DNA of 34,480 nt from Bacteroidales bacterium (lineage in GTDB: Bacteria > Bacteroidota > Bacteroidia > Bacteroidales > UBA932): positions 1 through 34,480 of the forward strand of contig JAFVAU010000009.1 of NCBI GenBank assembly GCA_017480345.1, in the 5' to 3' direction. Shown piece after piece: positions 339 to 33,031 of the stretch; position 1 is the stretch's first letter; every line of letters begins with the position of its first letter. The notes beneath the pieces were generated by a model. It had not been told where the DNA came from and did no database searches. It was given only the letters and a program-made list of their open reading frames with translations. The position numbers and the translations under genes are program-made.

Positions 339-2228
339 ATGAAACGACTGATTGCCGCTGTTTTTGCCTCGCTGGGCCTCACGTTGGCTATGGCGCAGGT
401 GCCTGCCCCGGCAGAGTTGATTCCGGCCGATGGAACCCCCAATATCACGAAGGAACTCTCCCGCAAGATTGGCGGGAAGGCGTTTGCCAAGAAAACCGCT
501 TCCTTGCCGGCCTTTGCCTTCGAGCAGGCCTATGAGCTCACGGTAACGCCCAAGGGCTACCGCGTGCAGGCCAATACTCAGACGGGCTATTTCTATGCCC
601 TGCAAACCCTCTCTCAGATGCAGACCTGCGGGACGGTGTACGACTATCCCCGCTTCCAGTACCGCGGTTTCATGCTGGACATCTCCCGCCATTTCCGGGA
701 CAAAGACTTCATCCTCAAGCAGATGAAGGCCCTGGCCAACCTCAAGATCAATCAGCTGCACCTGCATCTGACAGACGATGCCGGCTGGCGCCTCCAGGTG
801 GACAGCTATCCGCTGCTCACTTCCCAGGCCGCCTGGCGTGTGGGCTCCAACTGGCAGGAATGGTGCAACCTGGATCGTCAGTACTCCCAGGAAGGGGCTC
901 CGGAGGCCGTGGGCGGCTATCTCACCAAGGCCGATATCCGTGAAATCCTGGCCGAAGCCCAAAAGCTTCACATGAACGTGATTCCGGAGATTGAGATGCC
1001 CGGTCACAGCCGCGAGGTGGTGTTTGCCTATCCGGAGGTAGGCTGCCGCGAGGGAAGCTACGAGCTCTGCCCCGGCAAGGAAGCCACCTTCACCCTGCTG
1101 GAAAGCGTTCTGGAAGAGGTTATCGAGCTTTTCCCTTCCCCTTACATCCATATCGGCGGAGATGAGGCCGACAAGGAACATTGGAAAACCTGTCCGGACT
1201 GCCAGGCCCGCATGAAGGCCGAAGGACTCAGTTCCGTGGAAGAGCTCCAGAGCTATCTGGTCAAGCGCATCGAGCGCTTCATCAACGCCCACGGCCGCCA
1301 GCTGCTGGGCTGGGACGAGATTCTGGAAGGTGGCCTCTCACCCAATGCCACCGTCATGAGCTGGCGCGGCACCCAGGGAGGCCTGGAGGCCATCCGCCAG
1401 GGACACGACGCCGTCATGACTCCGGGCCGATTCTGCTACCTGGACAAGGTGCAGGACGCCCCCATTTATGAACCGGAAGGCTTCGGCGGTTACCTCCCCT
1501 TGGACGTGGCGCATTCCTATGACCCGCTCTCGGAGATTCCGGAAGACTCCTACGGGCATCTTCTGGGCGTCCAGGGCAACCTCTGGCACGAGCGCATCCC
1601 TACGCCCGAACATACGGAATACATGATGTACCCGCGCGTGGCGGCCATTGCCGAGGTGGGCTGGAGCCAGCCTTCCCGCAAAGACGGCTTCCGCGAAAGG
1701 GTTACCCGCTGGAACGACGCCCTTATCGCGGCCGGGTACAACGCCTTCGACATCAAGAAGGAAATGGGTGAACGCCCGGCCTTCAAGCATGGCATCCGGC
1801 ATGCCGCCGTGGGCAAGAAAGTCACCTACAAGGAATTCTGGAACCGGGGCTATCCCGCCGCCCGGGAAGCCACCTTCACGGATGGCCTCGGCGGTGGCTG
1901 GTCCTACGGAGACGGCCGCTGGCAGGGCTTCCTCTCAGACATTGACGTAACCATCGACATGGAGCAGGTGCAGGACATCCACTTTGTGGGCGGCACCTTC
2001 CTATGCGAGCCCGGCCCCGGCATCTTCCTTCCCAAATCCGTTGAAATCTGGCTGTCGGCCGATGGCGAAAACTTCACCCAGGCTGCCGTAGTGCCCCAGG
2101 AAATCCAGAAACCCAGCCAGAGTTATGTACTCTTCGGCGCCCCCATTACGGGGCAGGCCCGTTACGTGCGCTTCGTGGCCCATCCCAGCCGCGGCTTCCA
2201 GTTCCTGGACGAAGTGATTGTAAACTGA
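339..2228 (+). CDS. Secreted beta-N-acetylhexosaminidase, GH20 family
   Basis: A 629-residue glycoside hydrolase family 20 enzyme that would release terminal N-acetylglucosamine or N-acetylgalactosamine from glycans in the periplasm or at the cell surface. The start at 339 gives a clean signal peptide (MKRLIAAVFASLGLTLAMAQ) directly behind the -7 element; the frame is open further upstream but only through the repeats. An N-terminal GH20b-like domain (about 20-105) precedes the TIM barrel, with HLHLTDDAGWRL near residue 140, PEIEMPGHS near 212 and the catalytic Asp275-Glu276 in HIGGDEAD. GWDEI and MSWRG follow. The last ~140 residues look like a discoidin/F5-8C-type carbohydrate-binding module (VEIWLSADGENF, ARYVRFVAHP). 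No partner genes for glycan uptake (SusC/SusD) are adjacent, so it appears to be a stand-alone enzyme. Confidence 0.92.
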   Translation: MKRLIAAVFASLGLTLAMAQVPAPAELIPADGTPNITKELSRKIGGKAFAKKTASLPAFAFEQAYELTVTPKGYRVQANTQTGYFYALQTLSQMQTCGTVYDYPRFQYRGFMLDISRHFRDKDFILKQMKALANLKINQLHLHLTDDAGWRLQVDSYPLLTSQAAWRVGSNWQEWCNLDRQYSQEGAPEAVGGYLTKADIREILAEAQKLHMNVIPEIEMPGHSREVVFAYPEVGCREGSYELCPGKEATFTLLESVLEEVIELFPSPYIHIGGDEADKEHWKTCPDCQARMKAEGLSSVEELQSYLVKRIERFINAHGRQLLGWDEILEGGLSPNATVMSWRGTQGGLEAIRQGHDAVMTPGRFCYLDKVQDAPIYEPEGFGGYLPLDVAHSYDPLSEIPEDSYGHLLGVQGNLWHERIPTPEHTEYMMYPRVAAIAEVGWSQPSRKDGFRERVTRWNDALIAAGYNAFDIKKEMGERPAFKHGIRHAAVGKKVTYKEFWNRGYPAAREATFTDGLGGGWSYGDGRWQGFLSDIDVTIDMEQVQDIHFVGGTFLCEPGPGIFLPKSVEIWLSADGENFTQAAVVPQEIQKPSQSYVLFGAPITGQARYVRFVAHPSRGFQFLDEVIVN

Positions 2229-2238
2229 TGAAGAAAAA

Positions 2239-2270
2239 TTTGCGTTGTCCAAATTTTCTACCTATCTTTG
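2239..2270 (+). promoter_or_regulatory. Promoter of tRNA-Val
   Basis: TTTG at 2239-2242 and TATCTTTG at 2263-2270 are separated by 20 bases, a textbook Bacteroidetes sigma-ABfr promoter. The tRNA begins 10 bases after the -7 element, so the primary transcript has almost no leader. Confidence 0.8.
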
Positions 2271-2415: not shown

Positions 2416-3222
2416 ATGGGTGTACGGTACGATAGCGAAAAACAGCGCTTCGTGTTCGATTTCGAGCACGACGGCCAGGAGGATATCGTCAGTCTCACCG
2501 GTAACGGTTATGAGGTAGAGGCTTTCGGCAAATGCTTCTACTATGGCTATGAATTCGGGGAAGATGTCAGTGGCGCTCTCCGCTCTTCATTTATCCAGCA
2601 TGTCAAGTTTTCCGAGAACCTTCAGGAAGATCCGGCCCTTACTCAGTTCATCCAGAAAGCGGTGAACGACCTAAGTCACCGCATCAACCTGTATGATTAT
2701 GACCTGGTGGTGATGCCCGAGTCTTCCAGCCGTGTAAACAATTACATGCTTCGGTACATCTACCGTTTTGCCCAGCCCACTCTGAGGAAGATGGAACTGG
2801 TGAAGAATTTACCGGCCAACATCTCATTCGACATGGACGCCTTCACCGAGGCTTATTTGAACGATGTACTGGAAAACGGACGTCCCCGTTACACCGAAAA
2901 CCAGAAGGAAGAAGTTCGCCATCAGATAGGCCAGATGCTTGACCTCATCCACCGGAAGGACTATTTCACCATCGCCAAGGATGTAAAGAAAAGCCGGTTC
3001 CGCCCTTATATGATGGAATTCCTGCGCTTTGCTTCTCCGGCCGACGAGCAGCTTTGCCGCACCATCCGGGAGCAGAATGTGCTGGTCATTGACGATGTCA
3101 CCACCAGCGGCTCCACCTTGGGCGAAGTGCTTCGCACTCTCCGTATCCTTAACGAGGACAACCACATCTCCATTTTCAGCCTCATCGGCCGTAAAGACCT
3201 CATGGCCGATATGGCCGGGTAG
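2416..3222 (+). CDS. Phosphoribosyltransferase-fold protein
   Basis: A 268-residue cytoplasmic protein with a type I phosphoribosyltransferase signature: near residues 218-230 the run [14 protein letters not shown] has the hydrophobic-Asp-Asp-x-x-Thr-x-Gly-x-Thr PRPP-binding loop. A second strand, [16 protein letters not shown] (about 92-107), fits the early strand of the same fold. There is no base-specific motif that would name the substrate, and the N-terminal ~90 residues are not recognised. No ribosome site or promoter is evident: the ATG sits immediately behind the tRNA terminator, so expression may depend on read-through or a non-canonical promoter. The protein ends close behind the core domain, next to a group II intron remnant. 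It could serve nucleotide salvage, be a ComF-like factor, or be an accessory gene at a tRNA locus; the substrate is unknown. Confidence 0.7.
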
Positions 3223-3287
3223 GGTTTGCAATCCACTTCCTATTTTATGTCAATCAAGCAGGAGGAAAACAAAGAGTTTCGGAGTTT

Positions 3288-3445
3288 TCTTCCTACTTTC
3301 TTGTCCATCGGGCCAACCTTTTGCCGCCGGCTTCCTTCAGATTCCACCTCGCGATGGACACCCTTGCCTTTGGCTGTGACCTTCCCACTATCAGGGCGGT
3401 CTGGGGACTTGCACCCGTTAGACTGCGTTCGTGCTGGGCGAACAG
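3288..3445 (-). mobile_element. Group II intron 5' remnant (domain I region)
   Basis: On the minus strand this begins GTTCGCCCAGCACGAACGCA and contains TCTAACGGGTGCAAGTCCCC and GGAATCTGAAGGAAGCCGGC. These segments resemble the conserved 5' and domain I parts of bacterial group II intron RNAs. There is no reverse transcriptase gene and no domain V/VI hairpin towards 3223, so only a 5' fragment remains. Both boundaries are approximate. The assignment is from recalled consensus; a covariance search would settle it. Confidence 0.5.
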
Positions 3446-3483
3446 AAAACAGACACTTGCGGGTTTTCGCAGTGGTCTGTTTT
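3446..3483 (-). terminator. Bidirectional terminator hairpin
   Basis: AAAACAGAC (3446-3454) pairs perfectly with GTCTGTTTT (3475-3483), and inner TGCG/CGCA extends the stem. The A-run on one arm and T-run on the other allow action in both directions. It follows the minus-strand barrel gene by 17 bases. Confidence 0.75.
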
Positions 3484-3499
3484 CGTATTGGGCGTTAAA

Positions 3500-4135
3500 C
3501 TACAACGTGAGCCCAATGGTAACGCCCATCTCGATCACGTTGCTTGTCTCCTTGCATGCGAGGGGCATCACACCCTCGGTGTTGAAAACGTCTCCGAACC
3601 CCTTTTTGTAGCGGAAGAAAACGGCGAAGTTGTCAGTGAAGTTGTAGCCGGCTCCCGCCCCAACGGAGAATCCCATGGGGCTTTTTGCTTTCGGGTCATG
3701 CTTCGCCTCGCTTGTGCCGTTAAGTCTGCGCTCGCAGGAGGCATAGATGTCGAATTGCGGCCTTATTTCCAGGAAGAGGCCATTTCGGAAGGTGTACTTG
3801 TAACCTAGGGCAAAGAACACATCCATGGCCTGCACACGGTGTGTGGAACCATTTTCGACTTCCTGTACGCCGGCATTGAGCCATTCTACGCCGACGTTGA
3901 GATTAATTCCGCTCTGCTGACGCTTCCCGAACAAGAATTCAACATGCATGGAGCCGACGATACCCGGCTGGGGTGAGATTTTGTGATAAGGGTTGTCGGA
4001 AACCGACCAGAACGTGTAATTGGGGCCGACTTCCAGACCGATAAAGGCCCAGTCATGTTTCTTGACCGGTTCCTGTGCCCAGGCAGCACCCGTCACGGCG
4101 AGAATGGCTGCCATTGTGATAAAAAACTTTTTCAT
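3500..4135 (-). CDS. Outer-membrane beta-barrel protein (PorT/OMP_b-brl-like)
   Basis: A 211-residue exported protein. Residues 1-20 form a signal peptide ending AWAQ, then alternating polar/hydrophobic strands with aromatic girdles (WAFIGLEVGPNYTFW, FFALGYKYTFRNGLFLEIRP, FSVGAGAGYNFTDNFAVFFR) typical of small 8-stranded barrels. The last strand reads VIEMGVTIGLTL, a C-terminal barrel signature without a charged tail. The length is usual for the family. It starts 12 bases after the stop of the gene before it on the same strand, so the two are probably co-transcribed, and a hairpin terminator follows. The family gives structure rather than function; ligand or pore activity is not evident. Confidence 0.75.
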   Translation of the reverse strand: MKKFFITMAAILAVTGAAWAQEPVKKHDWAFIGLEVGPNYTFWSVSDNPYHKISPQPGIVGSMHVEFLFGKRQQSGINLNVGVEWLNAGVQEVENGSTHRVQAMDVFFALGYKYTFRNGLFLEIRPQFDIYASCERRLNGTSEAKHDPKAKSPMGFSVGAGAGYNFTDNFAVFFRYKKGFGDVFNTEGVMPLACKETSNVIEMGVTIGLTL

Positions 4136-4147: not shown

Positions 4148-5812
4148 CTATAGGTTTTCAATGACGTACGGCGTCCCGTCGCTGAGGGTGAATTCCATGC
4201 GTCCGACGCACAGCGTATCCATGCTCACCACATACCGCGCCCCCTCAAGAGCCGTCTTGCTCATGGCCGGAAACTCCTCCTTAAACTGTCGGGCTTTGTC
4301 CAGGGGTACATACAAGGTATAAGGGTTATGATGCGGCGTGGCGCTGTTGCTGAGATAGAAACAGCCGTTGTCGGCATCGTAGTCGGAGAGGCTGATCTTG
4401 TAGCCGTTCATGCGGTCGTGCCGGGCGTTGTCCAGACTCCACACCACAAAGCGGGTACCGGCATCGCTCAGTTTTATGGCGAGGTATTCCTCCTGCAAGC
4501 CGGGATTGGACTTTCGCGCTTCAAATTGGGCGGTGGTCTCGAATTCGTCTTTGGTGACGCTCAGCTGCTGCGCCAGACGTTTGACATATTGTGAATAGGA
4601 TTCCCTTTGGCAGGTGGCAGCCGCCAGTTCCAGCTCCTGCTCGTCCGTGTACAGCGGCGGGACCGCCAGTACGCCGTCGTCGGTAAAGAGGCCCGATTTG
4701 CCGCCGGTGGTGACTTTGTAGAACACCAACTCCGGTGCCAGCTCGCTGCTGTAGCGCTCGATGCTGTCGAACGTCGCTTGCAAAATGGGACGTCCATCGA
4801 GGGCACAGACGCCTGCACTGCCTCCTCTGGGGCGATAAAGGATGTCGCGGCTGCCCACGTCCATCCATTCGTTATTGTGGGGGAGCACCTCGCGGTCTCC
4901 GAGCTGCAAACCCCAGCCGCTGGTCTCCAGATAAGTTCCGAGGAGCAGTTCTCCGCCAATTTCTCCGGCAGGCGCCACTCCCTCCCAGGCCGGATCGGCA
5001 AGATAGGCGCCGTTGCGCCCCAGCACGCCCCACTTGCCATTTTCCTTGATGGACACATACATGTCCCCAGTCGGCGGCCAATAGGCTTTTGCATCTTCGA
5101 ATTCCTTGTCCACCAGGTGATAGCCCTCGTCGTTTTCATTGGGGAGGTAAAGTTTGCAGGGACCCTTGCCGTTGTCGCCATAATACAATATGATGGGCGT
5201 GCGCTTTGTCCCGAAGTAGTACGTGCTGCCGAACTCGAAAGCCACGAGGGTGCGGCCGCTGTACGGGTCGATGATGCCCCACCTGGCCCCTTTCTTTTTG
5301 CTGAGCTTGAGCGCGATGACGGCGTTCATGTCGCAGATGATCAAGTCGTCGTACCAGTAGGGCTTGAGCAGCCAGCCACGGCTGTCGTTGTTCCAGATAC
5401 CCTTTCGCTGTGAGCGTTCGTCATAGACAACATTGTTGGAGCCGTTGGCCCCCCAAGTACTGTGGTTGATGAGCACCGGCCGCTCCGACAGGTGGGGCAG
5501 TTCGTCATTGGCGATGCTGGCCGCGAGGGCCTGGCCGATGATGGGCAGCATGGTGCCGGCGACAATCTGGGAAGTCGAAGGCGACGATGGGCGGTAATAG
5601 CTCCCGCTGTAAAAGGAGCTCCCGGAGGATGACTGTGCCTGCTGCGGTGGCCTGTAGGACGGGCACCAGGTCTTGTGTGCTTCTCCTCTGGTGGTGCGGG
5701 CTTCGCAGTGTGCGCAGACTGCTTCGCTGACCGGCGGAACATCGATTTGGGCACGGGCACTGAATGCTCGGGGAAGGACAATCAGGGCCATCAGTATTAC
5801 AATCCGTCTCAT
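4148..5812 (-). CDS. Secreted protein with WG-like repeats, unknown function
   Basis: A 554-residue exported protein. The start at 5812 is chosen because it gives a signal peptide (MRRIVILMALIVLPRAFSAR, cleavage near ARAQ) and lies 20 bases behind a -7 element, although the frame stays open upstream. The first ~50 mature residues hold four cysteines (VCAHCEARTTRGEAHKTWCP), suggesting a small metal or disulfide site, then a Ser/Tyr-rich linker. The middle has WG-repeat-like segments such as ENGKWGVLGRNGAYLADPAW and GGKSGLFTDDGVLAVPPLY, which form beta structures in Bacteroidetes surface proteins. The C-terminal ~150 residues are not recognised. It is divergent from the sensor kinase gene and shares an intergenic region containing a perfect palindrome, so it may be under that system's control. 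The function is unknown. Confidence 0.65.
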   Translation of the reverse strand: MRRIVILMALIVLPRAFSARAQIDVPPVSEAVCAHCEARTTRGEAHKTWCPSYRPPQQAQSSSGSSFYSGSYYRPSSPSTSQIVAGTMLPIIGQALAASIANDELPHLSERPVLINHSTWGANGSNNVVYDERSQRKGIWNNDSRGWLLKPYWYDDLIICDMNAVIALKLSKKKGARWGIIDPYSGRTLVAFEFGSTYYFGTKRTPIILYYGDNGKGPCKLYLPNENDEGYHLVDKEFEDAKAYWPPTGDMYVSIKENGKWGVLGRNGAYLADPAWEGVAPAGEIGGELLLGTYLETSGWGLQLGDREVLPHNNEWMDVGSRDILYRPRGGSAGVCALDGRPILQATFDSIERYSSELAPELVFYKVTTGGKSGLFTDDGVLAVPPLYTDEQELELAAATCQRESYSQYVKRLAQQLSVTKDEFETTAQFEARKSNPGLQEEYLAIKLSDAGTRFVVWSLDNARHDRMNGYKISLSDYDADNGCFYLSNSATPHHNPYTLYVPLDKARQFKEEFPAMSKTALEGARYVVSMDTLCVGRMEFTLSDGTPYVIENL

Positions 5813-5881: not shown

Positions 5882-5916
5882 CGGCCGATGGGCAAGGATA
5901 ATTCGGCAGGAATTGA

Positions 5917-8711: not shown

Positions 8712-9361
8712 TAAACGTATTGCTCATAGAAGATTCCGCCGTATTTACGATGGGACTCAGACTGGCTTTGACGGCCGAAAAGAGCTTTGCCCGTGTTGAG
8801 GCTGTTGCTACTCCGGGCGGAGCAGTATCCTTCCTCAACGCCCATCCCCAGACAGACGTCGCCGTTGTGGATATAAGCCTGGAGGCCGAAACGGACGGAT
8901 TAACGCTCCTCGGCATCCTCCGGGAAGCCTTCCCTTCCGTGCGTACGCTGGTGCTGTCCCACTACAAGAAACCGGCTTATATTCTCAAAGCCATCAATGC
9001 AGGCGCCTGCGCGTACCTGGCCAAGGATTCCTCACCGGAGTCCATCGTCGGGGCCATTGCCGAGGTTGCCAGCGGCAAGTGCCTCTTCTTTGGCGAAACC
9101 ATCGATTCGGCCAAAATCACCAGACTCTTTGGCGGACAGGAGAATCTTCTTTCACGTAAGCCGCAAGGTCTTACGCCCCGGGAACTGGAAGTGTTGCAAC
9201 TCACCGCTTCCGGCTACAGCAACGCCCAGATTGCATCGGCCCTGGAAATCTCGCTCAATACCGTGGACAGCTATAAAGAACGCATCAAAGGAAAATTCGG
9301 CCTGGACAGTGTTGTGGAGTGTGTCGCCCACGCCACCCAGGACGGGATAGTCAGTGTATGA
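8708..9361 (+). CDS. LuxR/NarL-type response regulator
   Basis: A 217-residue DNA-binding response regulator and likely partner of the kinase ahead of it, with which it shares an ATGA overlap. The receiver domain has the acidic pair Glu8-Asp9, phospho-acceptor Asp55 (VAVVDIS) and the conserved Lys in YLAKDSS (about 110). The C-terminal helix-turn-helix begins LTPRELEVLQLTASGYSN and continues IASALEISLNTVDSYKERI, the GerE/LuxR signature. Possible targets include the divergent WG-like and barrel genes, given the palindrome upstream of the kinase. The start codon is fixed by the overlap and by the immediate MINVLLIEDS receiver start. Confidence 0.9.
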   Translation: MINVLLIEDSAVFTMGLRLALTAEKSFARVEAVATPGGAVSFLNAHPQTDVAVVDISLEAETDGLTLLGILREAFPSVRTLVLSHYKKPAYILKAINAGACAYLAKDSSPESIVGAIAEVASGKCLFFGETIDSAKITRLFGGQENLLSRKPQGLTPRELEVLQLTASGYSNAQIASALEISLNTVDSYKERIKGKFGLDSVVECVAHATQDGIVSV

Positions 9362-9414
9362 TCTTGCATGGTGACCAATCGGGAAAATGTCCGCCGCAAG
9401 TTGCCATCCGTTGA

Positions 9415-10236
9415 TCAAAAGACACAGTGGGTGGGGTCCACGCCGGGGGTGGGAACATAGTTCACCTTCACGCCATCGGCCGATACTTCCACTACGTTAT
9501 ATCCGGGCGTCCCATGTCCCAGGGCGTTGCACACGGGGCCGGCGGTGATAAAGCGGATGCCGTCCACTTCCGAGGCATATTCCTGGTGGCAATGCCCGGC
9601 GAAAACGATATCCACGCCATATTTCTTGAACAGGCCGATGTATTCTTCCCGCTTCTCGAAGGAAAAATTGAAATAGTCTTCCGGCTCGTCCGAGCTTTCC
9701 CGAATCACCGGGCAGTGAAGGAAGACGAAGGTGTATCGGCAATCTTGGGACTGGGTCAGCTCTTTCTCCAGCCATTCCCACTGCTCCTGCTCGGCCTCCT
9801 GAACGCCGTCCTTGATGCAATTGGAATCCATGCCGATAAAGGCACATCCCCTGTCCCGGAAAGCGAAGCGGTCATAGCCCCGGTGGGCAATGTAGGCAGC
9901 CTGCTTCTCACGGGTGAATCCCCGATAGTCGTGATTGCCGGGGACGGCGTATACCGGCGCTTCAAGCTCCGCGAGCCTTGTCCGGTAAACCGAATCCTGC
10001 ACGGGGTCCTGGGGATCATTCACCAGGTCTCCGGTCACGAAGACATAGGCCGGATGGAGGGCATTGGCGGCATCCACGGCAGCCTTCATCAGGGAATCCG
10101 AGTGCGCATAGGCCGGGGAATTGTCTTTGAATCCAATCTGCGTGTCGCTCATCTGAATGAACACGAAGGGCTTTTGGGTCTGGCAGGCCGTAGCCAGCAG
10201 TGCCAGAAAAACAGTAACGATGATGGAACGTTTCAT
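9415..10236 (-). CDS. Calcineurin-like metallophosphoesterase, lipoprotein
   Basis: A 273-residue lipoprotein phosphoesterase. The start at 10236 gives a lipobox signal (LALLATAC, Cys18); an earlier in-frame ATG would place a charged stretch ahead of it. Metal-binding blocks are in family order: MSDTQIG, GDLVNDP, GNHDYRG, HCPVIRES and GHCHQE. The first block has Asp-Thr-Gln where most family members have Asp-x-His, a variant known in CSTP1-like phosphatases. The substrate could be a phosphoprotein, nucleotide or phospholipid; the sequence does not decide. It has its own -7 element and convergent placement with the response regulator, with 53 bases between the stops and no clear terminator. 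Confidence 0.85.
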   Translation of the reverse strand: MKRSIIVTVFLALLATACQTQKPFVFIQMSDTQIGFKDNSPAYAHSDSLMKAAVDAANALHPAYVFVTGDLVNDPQDPVQDSVYRTRLAELEAPVYAVPGNHDYRGFTREKQAAYIAHRGYDRFAFRDRGCAFIGMDSNCIKDGVQEAEQEQWEWLEKELTQSQDCRYTFVFLHCPVIRESSDEPEDYFNFSFEKREEYIGLFKKYGVDIVFAGHCHQEYASEVDGIRFITAGPVCNALGHGTPGYNVVEVSADGVKVNYVPTPGVDPTHCVF

Positions 10237-10253
10237 TCTGAAAAGGGTTTTCG

Positions 10254-10261
10254 CAAAGATA
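10254..10261 (-). promoter_or_regulatory. -7 promoter element of the phosphoesterase gene
   Basis: On the minus strand TATCTTTG, 17 bases ahead of the lipoprotein start. No -33 TTTG stands out. The palindromic repeat region begins 20 bases further upstream. Confidence 0.55.
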
Positions 10262-10281
10262 CGAAAAAAGCTCGACTGAAT

Positions 10282-24564: not shown

Positions 24565-27447
24565 ATGAAAAGATTCTGCTTCCTGCTCCTGGCGGCCCTG
24601 GTGGCCGTCACAGCCTGTTCCCGTTATGAAACGGTGAAGGGAGACCCCATGGGCGTCAAAATTTACACCCTCAAAAACGGTCTCAAAGTTTACATGTCCG
24701 TGAACAAGGACGAACCCCGCGTCCAGACCTACATGGCCGTCCGGGTGGGCGGAAAGGACGACCCTGCGGACAACACCGGCCTGGCCCACTATCTGGAGCA
24801 CATGATGTTCAAGGGTTCCGAAATCCTGGGCACACAGGACTATGAGGCCGAAAAGCCCCTTCTGGCACAGATAGACAGCCTCTTTGAAGTGTACCGCAGC
24901 CTTACGGACCCGGCGGAGCGCGAGGCATTCTACCGCATCATAGACTCCGTGAGCTACGAGGCCTCCAAGCTGGCCATTCCCAACGAGTACGACAAACTCA
25001 TGTCCGTGATTGGCTCCGAGGGCTCCAACGCCTTCACCAGCGAGGACGTCACCTGCTATGTGGAGGAAATCCCCTCCAACCAGGTGGATGCCTGGGCCCG
25101 CATCCAGGCCGACCGCTTCCGCAACTGCGTCTTCCGCGGTTTCCACACGGAACTGGAAGCCGTCTACGAGGAGAAGAACATGAGCATGATAGACGACATC
25201 GAGAAAGCCATCGACGCCCTCAACGCCATGCTGTTCCCCCACCATCCCTATGGCACCCAGACGGTGATCGGCACCCAGGACCACCTAAAAAATCCTTCCC
25301 TGAAGGCCATCCGGAGGCAGAAAGACACCTACTACGTCCCCAACAACATGGCCATCTGCCTGTCCGGAGACTTTGACCCTGACCAAATGGTCCAGCTTAT
25401 AGAAAAATACTTCGGAGACTGGCAGCCCAACCCGGACGTTCCGGTAAGGACCATCGTCCCGGAGGAGCCTGCCAAGGAACCCCTGAGCCGCGATGTCTAC
25501 GGCTTCGAGGGTGAGTTCACCCTCCTGGGCTGGCGCGTTCCCGGCAACTCCACCGAGACGGCCGGCTACGCCTCCCTTGTGAGCGACATCCTCTCCAACG
25601 GCCTGGCCGGCCTCATAGACCTGGATATCGTCCAGGCCCAGAAGGTGCTGGAAGTCATGGTATCCCCCTATACCCGTGCCGACTGGGGCCTCCTGCTGGC
25701 CCAGGTCATGCCCAAGGAAGGCCAGTCCCTGAAAGAGGCCGAAGCCCTTATCAAGGCGCAGGTGGAACGTGTGGCCGCCGGTGATTTCCCGGAAGAACTG
25801 GTAGAAGCCGCCAAGGCCAATTACCGGCTGGCCATGATGAACAGCCTGGAGAACAACCGTTCCCGCGCCGGCATGATGATGAACACCTTCGTGGAAGGCC
25901 GCAGCTGGGCTTCAGAGGTGCAGAAGATTGAGAACACCCACGCCCTCACCAAGGCCGATATCGTGGCCTGGGCGCAGAAATACCTCACCGACGAAAACTA
26001 CGCCGTGGTGTACAAGCACTCCGGTCCGGACCCGTCCGTCAAGCGCATCAGCGCCCCCAAGATTACGCCCATCGTCACCAACCGTGACAAGCAGAGCGCC
26101 TTCCTGCAGGAGATTGCCCAGGCCCCGGTGGAGCCCATCGAGCCTCTCTTCGTGGACTTTGAGAAAGACATGGTGGTGGACACCGTGGGCGGCCTGGAAC
26201 TGCTGTACAAGCAGAATGTGAAGAACGAGATTGCCACCCTCACCTTCTGGTTCGACAAGGGCAGCAACCAGATGCCTGCCCTCCCGCTGGCCTCCGACTA
26301 TGTCCGTTATCTGGGGACGCCGGAAAAATCGGCCCAGGACATCTCCGTAGAGCTGTATTCCCTGGCCTCCAAGTGGAACATGAACGTGGGAGACTATCTC
26401 ACCACCATCACGCTCCGCGGCCTGGGAGAAAGCACCCCGAAAATCTATTCCCTGGTGGAATCCCTCTTTGAGCAGGCCGTACCGGACCAGGGCATCCTGG
26501 ATGGTCTCAAGGCCGATGTCATCCGCTCCCGGGCAGATTCCAAGAAGCGTCAGGGGGCCTGCAACGCCGCCCTGCAGAAGTACATGATGTACGGGCCGGA
26601 GCTTATCAAGACTTCCACCCTCACCAATGCGCAGGTGGCGGAAATAAGCTCTGAGGAATTGCTCTCCTCCCTGAAGGAACTCTTCGGCTGCCAGCACAAA
26701 ATCCTGTATTACGGACCGGCCACGCTGGAAGAGGTGAAGGCCCTGCTGGCCGCGCATTCCAACGACTCCTGGATGCCCGTGGTGAAAAATGTGCCTCCCA
26801 AGGTGCTCACCCGCACCCCCAAGGTGTTCGTAACGCCTTACAACTCGCGCCAGTTCAATTACATGCAATATTCCAACCGGGGAGAATCCCTCATCCTGGA
26901 GCAGGCTCCGTACGTGGATCTCTTCAACGAGTATTATGGTTCCGGCATGAACTCCATCGTGTTCCAGGAGATGCGCGAATCCCGCGCCCTGGCCTACAGC
27001 GCCGGCGCCCAGCTGGTTCGCCCGTCCTTCACCAATGACGAGTATTATTTCCGGGCCACCATCGCCTCCCAGAACGACAAACTGGTCAAGGCCGTGGAAG
27101 GCTTCAAGGAAATCATCGAGACGCTGCCCGAGGCTCCCGAGAACCTGGAGATTGCCAAGAGCGCTATCCTGAACAAGATCCGCACCCAGCGCACGCACGG
27201 CATCCAGGTGCTGTACCAGTACATCCGCAACCAGGAATTGGGCCTGACCGTACCCCGCGAGAAACTGGTGTACGACAAGGTGGGCCAGCTCACCATGTAC
27301 GACCTGTTGGCCACCCACGAGGAGTGGATCAAGGGCCGTACCTACCATTATGCCATCACCGGAGACGTAAAAGACCTGGACATGAAGTTCCTGGGCACCC
27401 TGGGCCCTGTCAAGGTAGTCTCCTCCGAAGAAATTTTTGGATATTAG
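24565..27447 (+). CDS. M16-family zinc peptidase, double-length lipoprotein
   Basis: A 960-residue insulinase/pitrilysin-type metallopeptidase, likely periplasmic and lipid-anchored (LLLAALVAVTAC lipobox; start chosen for that signal). The N-terminal active half has the inverted zinc motif His75-x-x-Glu78-His79 (LAHYLEHMMFKGSE) and a distal Glu in LEAVYEEKNMS. The fold continues with HHPYGTQTVIGTQDHL and NNMAICLSGDFDPDQMVQLI. The second half (from about 530) repeats the fold without the HxxEH motif and has QEMRESRALAYSAGAQL, the substrate-binding R/Y region typical of M16 partners. The gene thus encodes both halves of the clam-shell in one chain. It would degrade short peptides. A serine hydrolase gene follows after one base. 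Confidence 0.92.
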   Translation: MKRFCFLLLAALVAVTACSRYETVKGDPMGVKIYTLKNGLKVYMSVNKDEPRVQTYMAVRVGGKDDPADNTGLAHYLEHMMFKGSEILGTQDYEAEKPLLAQIDSLFEVYRSLTDPAEREAFYRIIDSVSYEASKLAIPNEYDKLMSVIGSEGSNAFTSEDVTCYVEEIPSNQVDAWARIQADRFRNCVFRGFHTELEAVYEEKNMSMIDDIEKAIDALNAMLFPHHPYGTQTVIGTQDHLKNPSLKAIRRQKDTYYVPNNMAICLSGDFDPDQMVQLIEKYFGDWQPNPDVPVRTIVPEEPAKEPLSRDVYGFEGEFTLLGWRVPGNSTETAGYASLVSDILSNGLAGLIDLDIVQAQKVLEVMVSPYTRADWGLLLAQVMPKEGQSLKEAEALIKAQVERVAAGDFPEELVEAAKANYRLAMMNSLENNRSRAGMMMNTFVEGRSWASEVQKIENTHALTKADIVAWAQKYLTDENYAVVYKHSGPDPSVKRISAPKITPIVTNRDKQSAFLQEIAQAPVEPIEPLFVDFEKDMVVDTVGGLELLYKQNVKNEIATLTFWFDKGSNQMPALPLASDYVRYLGTPEKSAQDISVELYSLASKWNMNVGDYLTTITLRGLGESTPKIYSLVESLFEQAVPDQGILDGLKADVIRSRADSKKRQGACNAALQKYMMYGPELIKTSTLTNAQVAEISSEELLSSLKELFGCQHKILYYGPATLEEVKALLAAHSNDSWMPVVKNVPPKVLTRTPKVFVTPYNSRQFNYMQYSNRGESLILEQAPYVDLFNEYYGSGMNSIVFQEMRESRALAYSAGAQLVRPSFTNDEYYFRATIASQNDKLVKAVEGFKEIIETLPEAPENLEIAKSAILNKIRTQRTHGIQVLYQYIRNQELGLTVPREKLVYDKVGQLTMYDLLATHEEWIKGRTYHYAITGDVKDLDMKFLGTLGPVKVVSSEEIFGY

Positions 27448-27448
27448 T

Positions 27449-28585
27449 ATGAAGAAACTTTTTGTTGCCCTTCTGGCGGCATCGGCCTGTCTGGCCTGCC
27501 AGAACCCGCAGAAGGCCTTCGAGCAGGAAATCGAGGCCTACCGCGCCTCCGTGCGGAATCCCGGCCTGGCCGTAGCCGTGGTCAAAGGCGGTGAGATTGT
27601 GTACAGCGCCGGCTTTGGATCGGCCTCCCTGGAGGAGGAGATTCCCATCGACCCGGAGCGTTCCCTGTTCCGCATTGCCTCCATCTCCAAGAGCTTCAGC
27701 GCCACCTCCATGATGCAGCTCATCGAGGCCGGCAAGGTTTCGCTGGACACGGACGTGAGCACCCTGGCGGGCTTCCCCATCCGCAATCCCAAGTTCCCTC
27801 AGAAGGTCATTACCCTGGAAATGCTCATGTCCCACACCTCCAGCCTCAACGACTCCCAGGGCTATTTTGTGCTGGATGCCGTGAATCCGGCCGTGAACCC
27901 GGACTGGGCCAAATGCTACAACGACTACGAGCCCGGCACCGGCTACGAATACTGCAACCTCAACTTCAACCTGGTGGGCACCTTCATCGAGAAACTCTCC
28001 GGCGAGCGCTTTGACCAGTATGTGGTGCACCATGTGCTGGAGCCGCTGGGCCTGTACGGCGGTTACTGCGTGGATTCCCTGGACGCCTCCCGCTTCGTGA
28101 AACTTTATTACTATGACGAGAAGGCCGACGCCATGAAGGAGTCCGTAGATGCCTACGCTCCCCGCAGCGAGCGCATCGCCAACTATACCTTCGGCTACGA
28201 CACGCCCGTGTTCTCCCCTACCGGCGGCATGAAGATATCGGCCTGCCACCTGGCCCGCTACATGATGATGCACATGGGCTGGGGAACCTCTCCTTCCGGT
28301 GTCAAGATAATCTCCGAGGAGAGTTCCCGTGCCATGCAGACGGAACGCTCCACCCCCGAGCACTACGGCCTGGCCCTCTGGAACGACTACGACACCATCC
28401 CCGGCGTGCACCTGGTGGGCCACACCGGCGGCGCCTACGGCCAGCGCAGCGCCATGTTCTGGGACTTGGACCACAACTTCGGCCTGGTGATGCTCTCCAG
28501 CGGCTCCGACAAGGAGGACGACGACGTCCCCAGCCAGGTAATCCCCGCCGTCCTCAATCTGATGTACAAGTACTTCTGTAAGTAG
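27449..28585 (+). CDS. Serine hydrolase, class C beta-lactamase-like (S12), lipoprotein
   Basis: A 378-residue lipoprotein (LLAASACLAC lipobox). The penicillin-binding fold is shown by Ser78-x-x-Lys81 (ASISKSF), Tyr168-x-Asn170 (YEYCNLN) and His325-Thr-Gly-Gly (GHTGGAYG), the three catalytic boxes of the S12 / class C group. Family members include D-alanyl-D-alanine peptidases, esterases and beta-lactamases; the sequence alone does not decide, and true resistance activity should not be assumed. It starts one base after the M16 stop, so it is translated from the same message. The pair suggests a peptide or peptidoglycan-fragment processing unit in the periplasm (inference). Confidence 0.88.
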   Translation: MKKLFVALLAASACLACQNPQKAFEQEIEAYRASVRNPGLAVAVVKGGEIVYSAGFGSASLEEEIPIDPERSLFRIASISKSFSATSMMQLIEAGKVSLDTDVSTLAGFPIRNPKFPQKVITLEMLMSHTSSLNDSQGYFVLDAVNPAVNPDWAKCYNDYEPGTGYEYCNLNFNLVGTFIEKLSGERFDQYVVHHVLEPLGLYGGYCVDSLDASRFVKLYYYDEKADAMKESVDAYAPRSERIANYTFGYDTPVFSPTGGMKISACHLARYMMMHMGWGTSPSGVKIISEESSRAMQTERSTPEHYGLALWNDYDTIPGVHLVGHTGGAYGQRSAMFWDLDHNFGLVMLSSGSDKEDDDVPSQVIPAVLNLMYKYFCK

Positions 28586-28704: not shown

Positions 28705-28735
28705 TTTGGGGGCCGATGGCGCAGGTGAGGGTGGT

Positions 28736-29796: not shown

Positions 29797-30666
29797 ATGT
29801 ATACAAGCAAGACATATCTGGTAGCGGGCTTCCCGTTTACGGTGAAGGCCGATAAGACGCTCCTGGATAGGATGGACAACCTGAACCCGTTCGCGGCCGA
29901 CGGAACGGACGGCCACCTCTTCGACCTGGAGCAGGCGGAGGCCGTAGCAGCCCCGGAGGGTGAGCCGCTGTTCTGCACGCAGGACGGGCCGGACTTTCCG
30001 GAAATTGCCATCTGGACCGTTCCGGAGGGGCATCTCTTCCGGATGCGGCCGCTGCCGGGCAGGCCGGCAGCCGTTCAGCTGCAAGTGAATGAAGACTTCT
30101 CCAAGGCGGCCATGCAGTTGAGCGGTACGGACGATGTCTTTGCCCTCAACAATGCCCTCATGCTGCTTTATGCGTTTTCATCGGCCCGGAAAGGCGCGCT
30201 GGAAATGCACTCCTCCGTGGTGATGCACCACGGGAAAGGCTACCTTTTCCTGGGGAAGAGCGGCACGGGAAAAAGCACGCACAGCCGCCTGTGGCTGCAG
30301 AATATCCCCGAAACGGAGCTCCTGAACGACGACAACCCGGTTCTCCGCCTGATGCCGGACGGCAGCGCCCGCGTGTTCGGGACGCCCTGGAGCGGAAAAA
30401 CCCCTTGCTACAAGGCCCAGGACGTGCCGGTGGGCGCCATCGTGCGCATCGAGCAGGCTCCGGAGAATGCCATCCGGAGGTTAAGCCCGCTGGAGGCCTA
30501 TGCCTCGGTGATGGCTTCGGCATCGGCCTTCCGTCCCTTCAAAGAACTCTCCGACGGCTGGCACCGGACGCTGGAAAGCCTGGCAGTCGCCGTTCCTTGT
30601 TACATCCTCCGCTGCCTGCCGGACGACGCGGCGGCCATCCTTTGCCACAAGACCGTCCATGGATAA
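29797..30666 (+). CDS. HPr-kinase-like (HprK/PEPCK-fold) ATP-binding protein
   Basis: A 289-residue cytoplasmic protein. The P-loop Gly153-Lys-Ser-Gly-Thr-Gly-Lys159-Ser160 (LGKSGTGKSTHS) and the acidic LLNDDNPVLRL block ~25 residues later match the C-terminal domain of HPr kinase/phosphorylase. GTPWSGK and the preceding ALEMHSSVVMHHGKGYLFLG fit the same fold. The N-terminal ~120 residues differ from real HprK and there is no HPr or PTS context. Related small kinases occur in lasso-peptide and other RiPP clusters, where some phosphorylate a serine of the peptide. Here the gene lies between DUF362 and a signal-peptidase-like gene, with an 8-base overlap into the latter. Peptide or protein phosphorylation is the best guess; the substrate is unknown. 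Confidence 0.8.
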   Translation: MYTSKTYLVAGFPFTVKADKTLLDRMDNLNPFAADGTDGHLFDLEQAEAVAAPEGEPLFCTQDGPDFPEIAIWTVPEGHLFRMRPLPGRPAAVQLQVNEDFSKAAMQLSGTDDVFALNNALMLLYAFSSARKGALEMHSSVVMHHGKGYLFLGKSGTGKSTHSRLWLQNIPETELLNDDNPVLRLMPDGSARVFGTPWSGKTPCYKAQDVPVGAIVRIEQAPENAIRRLSPLEAYASVMASASAFRPFKELSDGWHRTLESLAVAVPCYILRCLPDDAAAILCHKTVHG

Positions 30667-31120
30667 GATTGTACTGCCCAACGAAGTGTTCCTGGAAGAG
30701 GTGGCCGTCCTGCTGGACGAAGGCCGCGACGTGACGCTCTCCCCCAAGGGAAGCAGCATGCTGCCTTTCATCCGGGAAGGCCGGGACAGCGTAGTCCTTC
30801 GGAAGGAGCCGTCGGTAAAGAAGGGAGACATCGTGCTGGTGCGCCTTCCGGGCCGATATGTCCTCCACCGCATCATCCGGGAGGAAGGGCAGCGCCTCAC
30901 CCTCATGGGCGACGGGAACATCCGGGGAACGGAATCCTGCACCCGGGCCGATGTTCTGGGCACCGTCAAGACCATCCTCCGGGATGGGAAGCCCCGCCAG
31001 CCCAACGAGGGCAGGCTCTGGGGGCGGCTGCTGCCTTTCAGGCGAATTATTTTAGGATTATACAGAAGACTCCCCTCTGTAAGTCCCTCCCCCGAGGGGA
31101 GGGGTTTCGGGAGGGGGTAA
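30659..31120 (+). CDS. S24/S26 (signal-peptidase-like) protein
   Basis: A 153-residue protein with the S24/S26 peptidase fold. LSPKGSSMLPFIREGRDSVV contains the Ser-Met-x-Pro nucleophile block, GDIVLVRLPGRYVLHRIIRE the second block with the His of Ser-His type (S26B) enzymes, and LMGDGNIRGTES the third. It has no N-terminal membrane anchor, unlike true signal peptidases. Similar stand-alone proteins recur beside PqqD and HprK-like genes in Bacteroidetes. It may cut a leader peptide or may only resemble the fold. The last ~15 residues (SVSPSPEGRGFGRG) are encoded by a GC-rich palindrome and look like a repeat-derived extension. It overlaps the kinase gene by 8 bases. Confidence 0.78.
   Translation: MDKIVLPNEVFLEEVAVLLDEGRDVTLSPKGSSMLPFIREGRDSVVLRKEPSVKKGDIVLVRLPGRYVLHRIIREEGQRLTLMGDGNIRGTESCTRADVLGTVKTILRDGKPRQPNEGRLWGRLLPFRRIILGLYRRLPSVSPSPEGRGFGRG
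31085..31103. repeat. GC-rich palindrome at the 3' end of the S24/S26 gene
   Basis: CCCTCCCC (31085-31092) and GGGGAGGG (31096-31103) form a perfect 8-bp stem with a 3-base loop, followed by another G-rich tract. It resembles short intergenic C/G-run repeats seen in Bacteroidetes and is read as coding sequence here. Confidence 0.55.
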
Positions 31121-31145: not shown

Positions 31146-31412
31146 ATGAAAATTAAGGAAGGATTTACCCTACGGACCCTTTGCGGGGAACACATTGTGG
31201 TGGGCGAAGGCCTCTCCCAGGTGAATTTCAACAAGATTATTTCGCTGAACGAATCGGCCGCCTGGCTCTGGGAGCGGGTGCTGGGAAAGGAGTTCAGCGA
31301 AGACACGCTGGCTGGGCTCCTGCTTGAGAAATACGACGTCCCCGAGGATATCGCCCGGGCCGATGCCGCCAAACTGCTGGCCCAGTGGAAGGAACAGGGC
31401 ATCGTTGCGTAA
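31146..31412 (+). CDS. PqqD-family protein (RRE-like)
   Basis: An 88-residue protein with the PqqD fold, the winged-helix module (RiPP recognition element) that binds leader peptides for modification enzymes. The core is QVNFNKIISLNESAAWLWER, LLLEKYDVPEDIARADAAKL and LAQWKEQGIV, all in the family order. The ATG at 31146 is preferred to a TTG three codons earlier. It lies 25 bases behind the S24/S26-like stop and its stop overlaps the exporter start by one base (TAATG). PqqD homologues imply a ribosomally made peptide substrate, yet no such precursor or radical-SAM or lasso cyclase gene is in the window. Confidence 0.85.
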   Translation: MKIKEGFTLRTLCGEHIVVGEGLSQVNFNKIISLNESAAWLWERVLGKEFSEDTLAGLLLEKYDVPEDIARADAAKLLAQWKEQGIVA

Positions 31413-33031
31413 TGAAAGATTTCCGTCAGTGCCTGCGCGCCATGGGCGCTTACTCCCGCCCCGTCTGGGGCTGGATGACGGTCACGGCCCTGATCGGGCT
31501 GGGGCGTGTTGCCGCTTCGCTGACCTTTGTCTGGGCAAGTAAACAGCTGGTGGACATTGCTACCCGGCAGAGCGACATGCCACTGGGGACGGGAATCGGC
31601 CTGTTTGTGGGCATCCTTTTGGTCCAGCTGGCGCTGATAACGCTGTTCAACTGGTGGGAGGGTTATTCCCAGGTGAGGACGCAGAACCGTCTGCGGAAGC
31701 ACTTCTTCGGCCACGTGCTCCGGAGCCGCTGGGACGGCCGGGAGCGTTTCCTGTCCGGAGACACCGTGAACCGCCTGGAGGACGACATCCGCGTGGTGGC
31801 GGAACTCTTCTCTTCCCGCATTCCGGGGCTGGTGATTACGATGGTGCAGCTGCTGGCTGCATCGGCCTATCTGCTGGTGCTGGCGCCCAACCTGCTTTGG
31901 GTGCTGCTCATCCTGATGGTGGCGGCGGTCTTCGGCTCCAAATTGTTTTTCAAGCAGCTTCGCCGGCTGATGGCGGCCATCCGCGCCCGCGAGAGCGAGA
32001 TCCAGCAGGTGATGCAGGAGAGTCTGCAGCAGCGGGTGCTGGTGCTCACGCTCACCAGCGTGGAACGGGTGCTGGAGAAGTTTGGCTGGCTGCAGGACGA
32101 CGTAGAGGGGAATGTACGCAAACGCCTCAATTATAATGCCGTAGCCCGCGGGCTCATGTTTCTTGGCTTCCAGGCCGGGCATGCCGCCGCCTTCATTTGG
32201 GGTGTGGTGGGCATTCTGCACGGGACGGTGACCTTCGGCACCATGACGGGCTTCATCCAGTTGGTGGGCCAGGTGCAGCGCCCTGTGGCGGAGTTTGGCC
32301 GGCAGATTCCGGCCTTCATCACGGCGCTCACCTCCATCGAGCGGCTCATGGAGCTGGAAGAGTTGGAAGAGGAGCGTGTGGGAGAGCCCGTTCTCCTGGC
32401 CGATGCGCCGGAAATTGTGGTCTCCCATGTAAGCTATTCCTATCCGGGTGGTCACGAAGCGGTGCTGAAAGACTTTTCCTGCACTTTCCCGGCGGGAGAC
32501 CTGTCCGTCATTATGGGCACCACCGGTATCGGAAAGAGCACCCTGCTGCGGCTCATCATGGGACTTCTGACGCCCCAGGACGGCAGCATTACGCTGGGCG
32601 GGGTTCCCGCCTCCGCTGCCACCCGCGGCAACTTCCTCTATGTGCCGCAGGGGAACAGCCTCCTCAGCGGTACCATCCGGAGCAATCTGCAGTTGGCGGG
32701 TCCTTCCGCCACGGAAGAGGATATGCGGCAGGCGCTGGAAACGGCGGCCGCCCTCTTTGTGTATGATTTGCCCAAGGGGCTGGATACGCCCTGCGGGGAG
32801 GTAGGAAGCGGTCTTTCAGAGGGGCAGGCCCAGCGCATTGCCATTGCCCGCGCCCTGCTGCATCCCGGCAGTGTCCTGGTGCTGGACGAAAGCACATCGG
32901 CCCTGGACGGGGAAACCGAGGCAAAGGTGCTGGAAAATATCTGCAGCCGTTTTGCCGGCCGCAAAACCATTCTCTGCGTATCTCACAGGCCGGCCGCCAG
33001 TGCGCTTGCCCGGCAGGTTGTAACTATTTAA
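31412..33031 (+). CDS. ABC exporter, fused membrane and ATPase domains
   Basis: A 539-residue half-transporter that would act as a homodimer. Five or six hydrophobic helices occupy about residues 1-285 (VTALIGLGRVAASLTFVWAS, IGLFVGILLVQLALITLF, LLAASAYLLVLAPNLLWVLL and others). The ATPase has Walker A GTTGIGKS (about 369-376), Q-loop YVPQGNS, signature LSEGQ (E in place of the common G), Walker B VLVLDES and H-loop CVSHRP. There is no N-terminal C39 peptidase, so any leader removal would fall to another protein such as the S24/S26-like one. It is the last gene of the operon and overlaps pqqD by one base. A peptide substrate is inferred from the neighbours. Confidence 0.9.
   Translation: MKDFRQCLRAMGAYSRPVWGWMTVTALIGLGRVAASLTFVWASKQLVDIATRQSDMPLGTGIGLFVGILLVQLALITLFNWWEGYSQVRTQNRLRKHFFGHVLRSRWDGRERFLSGDTVNRLEDDIRVVAELFSSRIPGLVITMVQLLAASAYLLVLAPNLLWVLLILMVAAVFGSKLFFKQLRRLMAAIRARESEIQQVMQESLQQRVLVLTLTSVERVLEKFGWLQDDVEGNVRKRLNYNAVARGLMFLGFQAGHAAAFIWGVVGILHGTVTFGTMTGFIQLVGQVQRPVAEFGRQIPAFITALTSIERLMELEELEEERVGEPVLLADAPEIVVSHVSYSYPGGHEAVLKDFSCTFPAGDLSVIMGTTGIGKSTLLRLIMGLLTPQDGSITLGGVPASAATRGNFLYVPQGNSLLSGTIRSNLQLAGPSATEEDMRQALETAAALFVYDLPKGLDTPCGEVGSGLSEGQAQRIAIARALLHPGSVLVLDESTSALDGETEAKVLENICSRFAGRKTILCVSHRPAASALARQVVTI

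Follow-up and report, generated by a model that had tools for sequence, protein, structure and literature searches.

The DNA analysed here, called the window throughout, is a stretch of 34,480 nucleotides from a Bacteroidales bacterium. Twenty-four genes were called in it, one of which encodes an AddA-like helicase-nuclease (16088-19060). The heptamer ATCGGCC is present 57 times in the window, 31 times in the forward and 26 times in the reverse orientation, and is the most over-represented of its 7-mers. Forward copies lie at 3184-3190, 7010-7016, 7047-7053, 8279-8285, 8671-8677, 9235-9241, 11943-11949, 14124-14130, 14787-14793, 15590-15596, 16553-16559, 17210-17216, 20103-20109, 20469-20475, 21914-21920, 23087-23093, 23812-23818, 26328-26334, 27481-27487, 27619-27625, 28237-28243, 30180-30186, 30522-30528, 31253-31259, 31595-31601, 31861-31867 and 32896-32902. 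Reverse copies lie at 425-431, 929-935, 1425-1431, 2057-2063, 3204-3210, 5533-5539, 5883-5889, 7959-7965, 9633-9639, 12165-12171, 13454-13460, 14649-14655, 16928-16934, 21678-21684, 22841-22847, 25953-25959, 26511-26517, 28711-28717, 29847-29853, 30851-30857, 30946-30952, 31358-31364 and 32398-32404. Two further copies are inverted and overlap (ATCGGCCGAT, 9475-9484). The repeats at 10281-10393 hold three copies, two of them forward within intergenic repeats (10302-10308 and 10385-10391) and one reverse within an inverted repeat (10356-10362). A hairpin at 19616 (-20.2 kcal/mol) has two inverted copies as its stem and is followed by a T run, giving a terminator-like element at 19617-19639.

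Dinucleotide shuffling of the window (100 shuffles) gave a mean of 6.96 copies and a maximum of 15, in line with the random estimate of about six in a preliminary description of this DNA. That description had proposed strong over-representation from about 50 copies, 29 and 25 by orientation, and our recount bears it out. It had set the span at 339-32902; the end is correct, but the first copy is the reverse one at 425. Its three copies in palindromic repeats (then placed at 10282-10428) and its terminator with two inverted copies in the stem are also present. Plus-strand variants of the final base number 15 (ATCGGCA 7, ATCGGCG 6, ATCGGCT 2), close to the dozen or so reported earlier. As had been stated, the word occurs both in and between genes: 45 copies fall within the called genes, compared to a mean of 10.3 and a maximum of 18 in 200 synonymous-codon shuffles, and the remaining 12 lie outside them.

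The excess extends far beyond the window, with 3333 copies of ATCGGCC in a 2.22 Mb genome compared to 274 of the reversed control. In coding DNA, 592 copies were observed and 117 were expected under a synonymous-codon shuffle, and this five-fold excess indicates a preference at the level of DNA. The word had been described as frequently formed by an A-ending codon followed by TCG GCC, and this rare-codon frame (nnA TCG GCC) was indeed seen 175 times against an expectation of 6; a second rare-codon frame, GGC CGA T, was seen 32 times against 2.6. Intergenic DNA carried 97 copies in 72 kb. Genes of atypical codon use were not depleted, with 4.7x in the lowest quartile and 5.0-6.3x in the remaining three. 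Among the regions sampled, the longest one with few copies, selected for that reason, is a mobilizable element with 4 copies in 11.3 kb, where 18 were expected.

Could codon use, codon-pair bias or base composition by itself produce the excess? Common codons (GCC GAT, ATC GGC) carry part of the signal, as the copies retained in the shuffles attest, and other words, TCCGGA among them, are also raised about two-fold in genome G000 by the same measure. The preliminary description had held that counts near expectation under codon-pair bias would overturn its reading; the five-fold excess stays under the synonymous-codon shuffle, which is not an explicit codon-pair model. Codon pairs are hard to credit, since the excess is found between genes, on both strands, in rare-codon frames and in four combinations of frame and strand, and such an origin would require a codon-context rule operating in all four as well as in intergenic DNA. 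A relative also has a second form of the word that differs by one base. This explanation is therefore hardly credible, and we conclude that the over-representation is genome-wide, independent of orientation, exerted at the DNA level and overrides codon choice.

No strand bias was detected for ATCGGCC with respect to genes (292 vs 300), contigs (p 0.76 in samples of 14 contigs, all of which contained the word) or the region around ftsK (454 vs 455 in 36 homologous loci). Replication polarity was thus judged per contig and around ftsK, the origin not having been located. The lack of strand bias had been taken earlier to argue against both Chi and KOPS. A KOPS-type polarity, which would switch solely at the origin and terminus, is indeed excluded, whereas Chi is weakened but not excluded. 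An enrichment at terminators, which the preliminary description had proposed to look for, was not seen: convergent intergenic regions contained 1.09 copies per kb compared to 1.58 in codirectional ones, and 14 adjacent GGCCGAT..ATCGGCC pairs lay within 60 bp of each other over 414 kb, compared to about 16 estimated by hand from density.

Conservation in related genomes, also suggested earlier as a check, was apparent around ftsK: in close relatives, defined by an FtsK identity of 72% or more, each of the 36 loci scored had ATCGGCC at 2-6.5x, compared to 0.3-1.0x at four outgroup loci. The genus also includes word-free relatives, and a quick tree leaves the monophyly of the word-bearing lineage unsettled. 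One genome, UBA4230, carries a clear second form, with TTCGGCC at 4.8x and ATCGGCC at 4.1x (codon shuffle, 318 kb), compared to 1.6x and 7.4x in a sister. Genome-wide, UBA4230 has 3128 copies of TTCGGCC and 1702 of ATCGGCC; its five sisters have 637-882 and 3173-3900, respectively. L029 and L033 likewise have raised levels of TTCGGCC. In most comparisons of same-form relatives, ATCGGCC is conserved above average: 27 of 31 copies were shared by L046 and L040 (46% for all 7-mers), with a modest excess between the window and L035 (12/17 vs 55%) and a slight one between the window and L033 (5/14 vs 31%). Across the switch in form, 1 of 35 copies was conserved. Of the other frequent 7-mers, 3-64% were conserved as well as ATCGGCC, depending on the pair.

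The preliminary description had further suggested a search for com genes, and part of the set was found. ComEC is present in 184 of 199 family genomes, including G000, and in the two members examined (L040 and L049) it is a short form consisting of the bare channel domain without DUF4131. DprA was found in 16 of 17 genomes; among word-bearing genomes, G261 shows none, and in G263 the sole DprA is divided between two frames. Neither gene tracks ATCGGCC, as both also occur in motif-free relatives. The type IV pilus/type II secretion ATPase (PF00437) was over the curated cut-off in none of 13 genus genomes, 3 of them at least 90% complete, and in 13 of 14 control genomes; 11 of the 13 showed weak matches below the cut-off. 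Of the pilus machinery, the search covered this ATPase.

We propose that ATCGGCC is a lineage-specific word for recognition of self DNA, kept across the genome through a DNA-handling protein that recognises it in double-stranded DNA whichever way it is oriented, most likely for uptake and recombination of free DNA; we give this reading a probability of roughly 0.4. Fragments bearing the word would enter cells and recombine with greater frequency, spreading it through the genome by a drive akin to that of DUS and USS. Uptake is our best guess at the function, and we infer a dedicated reader acting in it. The route would dispense with a recognisable type IV pilus and perhaps employ machinery of the kind reported for Riemerella, via the encoded ComEC channel and DprA. 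The uptake-type reading offered earlier gains from three hallmarks of such sequences, the over-representation beyond composition and codon choice, the equal use of both orientations and the conservation in the lineage with a second form one base away, and also from the presence of ComEC and DprA. It loses from the pilus ATPase and terminator results, the short ComEC, the failure of ComEC and DprA to track the word, the near-normal enrichment in genes of atypical codon use and the small excess conservation in some pairs.

Alternatively, an orphan DNA methyltransferase or a methylation-dependent repair system may act on the word, or on a site within it, and so create and maintain it, as has been proposed for HIP1 in cyanobacteria. 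The high density of copies in genes and intergenic DNA alike would suit such an origin, and in some species HIP1 gives way to alternate HIPs (PMC4390886), much as a second form appears here. G000 strongly avoids GATC (942 vs 3142), suggesting modification or restriction in the lineage. However, ATCGGCC is not palindromic, and none of its one-base neighbours is depleted enough to have supplied the copies. C5 methyltransferases (PF00145), the class searched, were found in just 5 of 17 genomes and not in G000, making a 5-methylcytosine/Vsr route unlikely there. We consider a methylation-linked origin unlikely.

A Chi-like role, in which the word regulates an AddAB helicase-nuclease, allowing repair of broken DNA of the cell itself but degradation of linear DNA from outside, appears rather unlikely. 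The window encodes the AddA-like protein, and 13 of the 14 genomes examined for an AddB-like protein have one. Adjacent copies are more often opposite in orientation, as would suit a direction-dependent reader: same-orientation pairs were 278/636 in G000, 273/604 in G264, 214/481 in the UBA4230 set and 373/813 in the named loci. This effect is weak, however, and reversed in one set (140/249). Known Chi sites are biased towards the leading strand, and the polarity expected of them was missing. AddB is also present in the word-free G013, G029, G082 and L063. Moreover, five sisters with the same word carry AddA and AddB alleles of two divergent groups: AddA identity of L040 is 84-85% with L046 and L073 but 73% with L050 and L069, and AddB identity is 86-97% within and 78-80% between these groups. 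Over-representation as such is shared with E. coli Chi (O/E 2.29; PMC3784561). Less probable still is a binding site for an abundant protein, whether chromosome-organising or of another kind, with selection for sites all along the chromosome; the occurrence in coding and non-coding DNA of every contig sampled, free of polarity, would fit, but the spacing is uneven (gap CV 1.11; 0.99-1.27 in three genomes).

The word perhaps marks the DNA of these closely related gut bacteria as their own. Should ATCGGCC prove to be an uptake tag, this would point to selective exchange of naked DNA among them without pili. The word-bearing bacteria of this group are uncultured. A strong tag in rumen Bacteroidales, word-free congeners and a sister species whose second form differs by one base constitute a natural experiment, in which a gene varying in step with the tag would be expected to encode the reader. 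We tentatively suggest, as a possibility we hold with some doubt, that rumen Bacteroidales have sequence-specific self-DNA recognition with evolving dialects, which would operate without a type IV pilus and through a new type of reader. We know of no earlier system of this kind with dialects in Bacteroidota.

To our knowledge, genome-wide self-tags with a known or proposed function are few: the uptake sequences of Neisseriaceae and Pasteurellaceae, Chi and HIP1. Chi is likewise non-palindromic and over-represented, with AddAB-like proteins encoded here too, but ATCGGCC has no strand polarity and stays while AddAB alleles diverge. HIP1 is also short and very frequent, and low or replaced in some relatives (PMC4390886); unlike ATCGGCC it is palindromic, and it is tied to orphan methyltransferases, of which the C5 class was not found in G000. 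Inverted pairs at terminators or between genes are typical of Neisseria uptake sequences, not of all uptake sequences. Pasteurellaceae uptake signal sequences are non-palindromic, mostly genic and free of strand bias, like ATCGGCC, but have an extended AT-rich flank, which was not seen around our copies, and the pilus ATPase sets the two apart as well. Riemerella belongs to the same phylum; its transformation requires ComEC, DprA, ComF and RecA, together with four proteins that show no homology to the machinery known so far (PMC8459023), and a preference of R. columbina for its own DNA has been reported (PMC7965970). The putative Riemerella uptake words come from a k-mer table and are unproven according to their authors; they include A-rich 10-mers, unlike ATCGGCC (PMC7965970). 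The pattern of ATCGGCC most resembles a DNA uptake sequence with dialects. Neisseriaceae DUS number thousands per genome, are consistent within clades and have dialects as little as one base apart (PMC3630211), although the DUS is a 10-mer and ATCGGCC a 7-bp core, in a Bacteroidales host lacking a pilus ATPase over cut-off and terminator enrichment. Simonsiella muelleri has two DUS dialects separated by one A/T transversion, a pair that resembles TTCGGCC and ATCGGCC in UBA4230 (PMC3630211).

The heptamer ATCGGCC, counted in either orientation, was the top 7-mer of the window, with 57 copies, of which 31 were forward and 26 reverse; shuffled sequences averaged 7.0. The window, whose genes are of Bacteroidales type, is one whole contig of a genome of 2.22 Mb in 46 contigs (G000). 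The complete genome held 1669 forward and 1664 reverse copies of the word, 3333 together, versus 274 of the reversed word used as a control. ATCGGCC was again the leading 7-mer in a 414 kb sample of G000 (19 stretches and the window, 18.6% of the genome), with 671 copies versus 137 expected under an order-3 Markov model, and the strong over-representation reported in the preliminary description was thus borne out. Also strongly repeated in this sample (L009-L027 and the window) were two 12-letter words, AACGAGAAATGT with 16 copies and GCGAGTAACGTC with 12. At 10281-10393 of the window, a 30-nt intergenic repeat with inverted arms and a strong hairpin occurred twice, 83 bp apart, with ATCGGCC in each copy; its 14-nt core, TTGCCACGTTGACA, was absent from the 203 loci searched.

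Synonymous shuffles and an analysis of reading frames led us to reject codon use as the source of the excess. When the codons of each gene were permuted among synonymous positions, the excess persisted in the G000 sample (592 coding copies versus 117), in another set of G000 genes (573 versus 112, with a maximum of 127 over 20 shuffles) and in the window alone (45 versus 10.3, with a maximum of 18 over 200 shuffles). Frames made of rare codons were in excess (nnA TCG GCC, 175 versus 6; GGC CGA T, 32 versus 2.6), as were frames made of common ones (xxG GCC GAT, 247 versus 46; ATC GGC C, 104 versus 49); two other frames were small (10 versus 4.2 and 5 versus 4.4). Density was 1.35 copies per kb in intergenic versus 1.68 in genic DNA. 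Enrichment was least in the lowest GC3 quartile of genes (3.8x, compared with 5.3-5.8x in the rest), and genes of atypical codon use were not depleted (4.7x). The excess is therefore a preference at the DNA level, and the equal numbers of antisense and sense copies (300 and 292) make a role at the RNA level unlikely.

All seven positions of the word mattered. Several one-base variants were mildly raised, among them ATCGGCA (1.5-2.8x) and TTCGGCC (0.9-1.9x outside the genome UBA4230). Changes in G000 were all depleted at position 6, mostly depleted at position 5, and neutral or depleted at position 4. VSP-type C-to-T repair was rejected as an origin, because single mutants were insufficiently depleted and a C5 methyltransferase was not found in G000. 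A G before the word was disfavoured. In G000, GATC stood at 0.30x and GATCGGCC at 1.5x, equal to the product of 1.5x, so that general GATC avoidance accounts for the preceding-G effect and an extended motif was discarded for this genome. Two pooled sets of relatives gave 1.06x and 1.09x for GATCGGCC versus products of 3.4x and 2.2x; being two to three times below the prediction from GATC avoidance, these values indicate that a weak extra dislike of a preceding G may exist. GATC itself was strongly avoided in G000 genes (942 versus 3142 by synonymous shuffle) and about two-fold in relatives, which suggests a history of GATC-directed restriction or modification.

The distribution of the two orientations fitted 50:50 in the 14 G000 contigs sampled (chi-square 10.0, 14 df, p 0.76), and 454 and 455 copies were counted around ftsK in 36 homologous loci. 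The preliminary description had held that the lack of strand bias argues against Chi or KOPS. This absence of polarity excludes KOPS but only makes Chi less likely. Copies were not evenly spaced, and a role in termination, for which the preliminary description had proposed a check of enrichment at terminators, was rejected, as no excess was seen there. Adjacent copies in the G000, G264 and G259 samples were opposite beyond chance, with 44-45% in the same orientation. Neighbours shared an orientation in 278/636 pairs in G000, 273/604 in G264, 214/481 in the UBA4230 set and 373/813 in the named loci, sets that are not fully independent because the named loci are homologous; three other genomes of the genus (G027, G036 and G005) showed the opposite trend (140/249). 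For 399 frequent control words in G000 the mean same-orientation fraction was 0.56 (sd 0.06), and the first percentile, 0.437, was the value of ATCGGCC. This orientation repulsion is weak and unexplained.

FtsK of the window shared 72-95% identity with the proteins of uncultured Bacteroidales or Bacteroidia, many labelled as rumen or ruminant MAGs, and 57% with that of Candidatus Cryptobacteroides. We scored 40 of 50 ftsK loci, leaving out eight shorter than 9 kb and two from Psychrobacillus. All 36 loci at or above 72% FtsK identity showed 2.0-6.5x ATCGGCC by synonymous shuffle (at least 3x in 30), and the word ranked first in 28; the UBA4230 locus gave 2.5x. Four more distant loci gave 0.3-1.0x. 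L044, though weak in its short locus, carried 1641 copies genome-wide (control 279), and the L063 genome 294 (control 134). Copies among 36 other genomes of the genus were most numerous in G027 (2598), G036 (1912), G005 (1795) and G003 (1571). The codon shuffle gave 3.6x, 3.2x and 3.2x for the first three; the small and atypical G003 sample (12 kb, GC 0.16) allowed no judgement. Other genus samples yielded 44 copies versus 29.6 expected (G014), 18 versus 16.3 (G008), 9 versus 10.8 (G013), 17 versus 17.1 (G022), 7 versus 15.7 (G082) and, in a member without the word, 10 versus 8.6 (G029). Only G000 (1.5) and G144 (0.63) exceeded 0.5 copies per kb among 199 family genomes sampled; the next densest, G127, was not enriched by codon shuffle (38 versus 33.8). 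G258 held 173 copies (control 33). Locus and whole-genome counts together indicate that ATCGGCC marks a group of close relatives within one genus. This group may or may not be a clade: in a quick FtsK tree with open forks, the word-free, long-branched L063 and L064 appeared beside L051, L053, L054, L065 and L072.

No equally strong other word was found in the samples of G013, G022, G082, G014, G008 or G127. In the G029 sample (L101-L105), ATTGCC occurred 121 times versus 45 by synonymous shuffle (2.7x), which could reflect another word or codon context. Seven family genomes (G079, G080, G085, G125, G161, G187 and G197) held 0-26 copies each of ATCGGCC and TTCGGCC in 1.7-3.0 Mb, perhaps owing to GGCC avoidance by restriction.

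Five gaps longer than 3.5 kb were poor in the word, and all except that on L026 were annotated. The longest lay on L024, a stretch of G000, where 6868-18137 held 4 copies versus 18 expected and the wider 6495-19850 held 7 versus 22. A mobilizable element at 6495-16280 of L024 was poor in the word. Besides a relaxase and an integrase it encodes two Schlafen/AlbA proteins, and it gave a weak NikA-like match; since this stretch was picked for its poverty in ATCGGCC, it serves as an illustration and not as a test. Another gap contained a PD-(D/E)XK transposase and another a SusD protein.

A second form, TTCGGCC, predominated in UBA4230 (L049), with 3128 copies versus 1702 of ATCGGCC; five sister genomes had 637-882 and 3173-3900, respectively. 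Codon shuffles gave 445 versus 92 for TTCGGCC and 242 versus 59 for ATCGGCC in UBA4230 (318 kb), and 112 versus 68 and 577 versus 78 in its sister L073 (361 kb), indicating that UBA4230 favours WTCGGCC, with T commoner. TTCGGCC was also raised in two further species, L029 (1780, control 608) and L033 (1609, control 687), and no other genome stood out among 199 in the family search. At 35 aligned TTCGGCC sites of L049, L040 had TTCGGCC in one and ATCGGCC in five. Conversely, 4/24 ATCGGCC sites of L040 were retained in L049 and 5/24 had become TTCGGCC, where all 7-mers keep 29%; 4/6 aligned ATCGGCC sites of L049 were common to L040. Relatives of the same form kept ATCGGCC above the average 7-mer in the pairs compared: between L046 and L040 (27/31 and 27/40 versus 46%), L073 to L040 (29/34 versus 54%), L069 to L050 (24/26 versus 77%), and from the window to L035 (12/17 versus 55%), L028 (7/12 and 7/14 versus 38%) and L031 (4/7 versus 24%). 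The conservation looked for in relatives was thus present in most such pairs but slight from the window to L033 (5/14 versus 31%). Depending on the pair, 3-64% of other frequent 7-mers matched it.

The preliminary description had likened the word to an uptake signature, with com genes as a point to check. ComEC was encoded in 184 of 199 family genomes, including G000, with no match within the window, and DprA in 16 of 17 (complete in G000, split in G263, missing in G261). Both genes were therefore found, but their presence does not track ATCGGCC. Many relatives carry comEC some 3 kb downstream of ftsK, on the opposite strand. In L040 (14959-16044, 361 aa) and L049 (14948-16018, 356 aa) it is a short channel-only form that has no domain besides Competence; a 710 aa form with DUF4131 occurs in another genus of the family. 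No pilus or secretion ATPase exceeded the cut-off in 13 genomes, 11 of which gave weak matches below it.

A HIP-like word linked to methylation appears unlikely to us; C5 methyltransferases occurred in 5 of 17 genomes. A Chi-like word is a shade more doubtful, given the lack of polarity in the 14 contigs and 36 ftsK loci. The window encodes an AddA-like protein; an AddB-like protein is encoded in another part of G000 and is present in 13 of 14 genomes, word-bearing or not. By presence alone, neither these proteins nor ComEC, DprA, the pilus ATPase or the C5 methyltransferase track the word. Between sister species, AddA and AddB diverge much more strongly than the genes next to them (L040 6356-9328; loci L148-L153): AddA of L040 is 73% identical to that of L050 and L069, and FtsK 93%. 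From these sequences, the divergence looks like exchange or fast evolution. A chromosome-binding word we consider improbable.

A word that is orientation-free, lineage-bound, provided with a second form and dense in the genome's own genes has the pattern of an uptake sequence. We hold this reading tentatively, at a probability of about 0.4, since the classical uptake machine was not found. A literature search brought up no uptake or Chi word described for Bacteroidales, which is not proof of absence. In Riemerella, of the same phylum, transformation is described as depending on ComEC, DprA, ComF and RecA, together with four proteins that lack homology to known machinery (PMC8459023). The second form of UBA4230, one base away from ATCGGCC, resembles the case described in Neisseriaceae of one genome with two dialects a single A/T transversion apart (PMC3630211).
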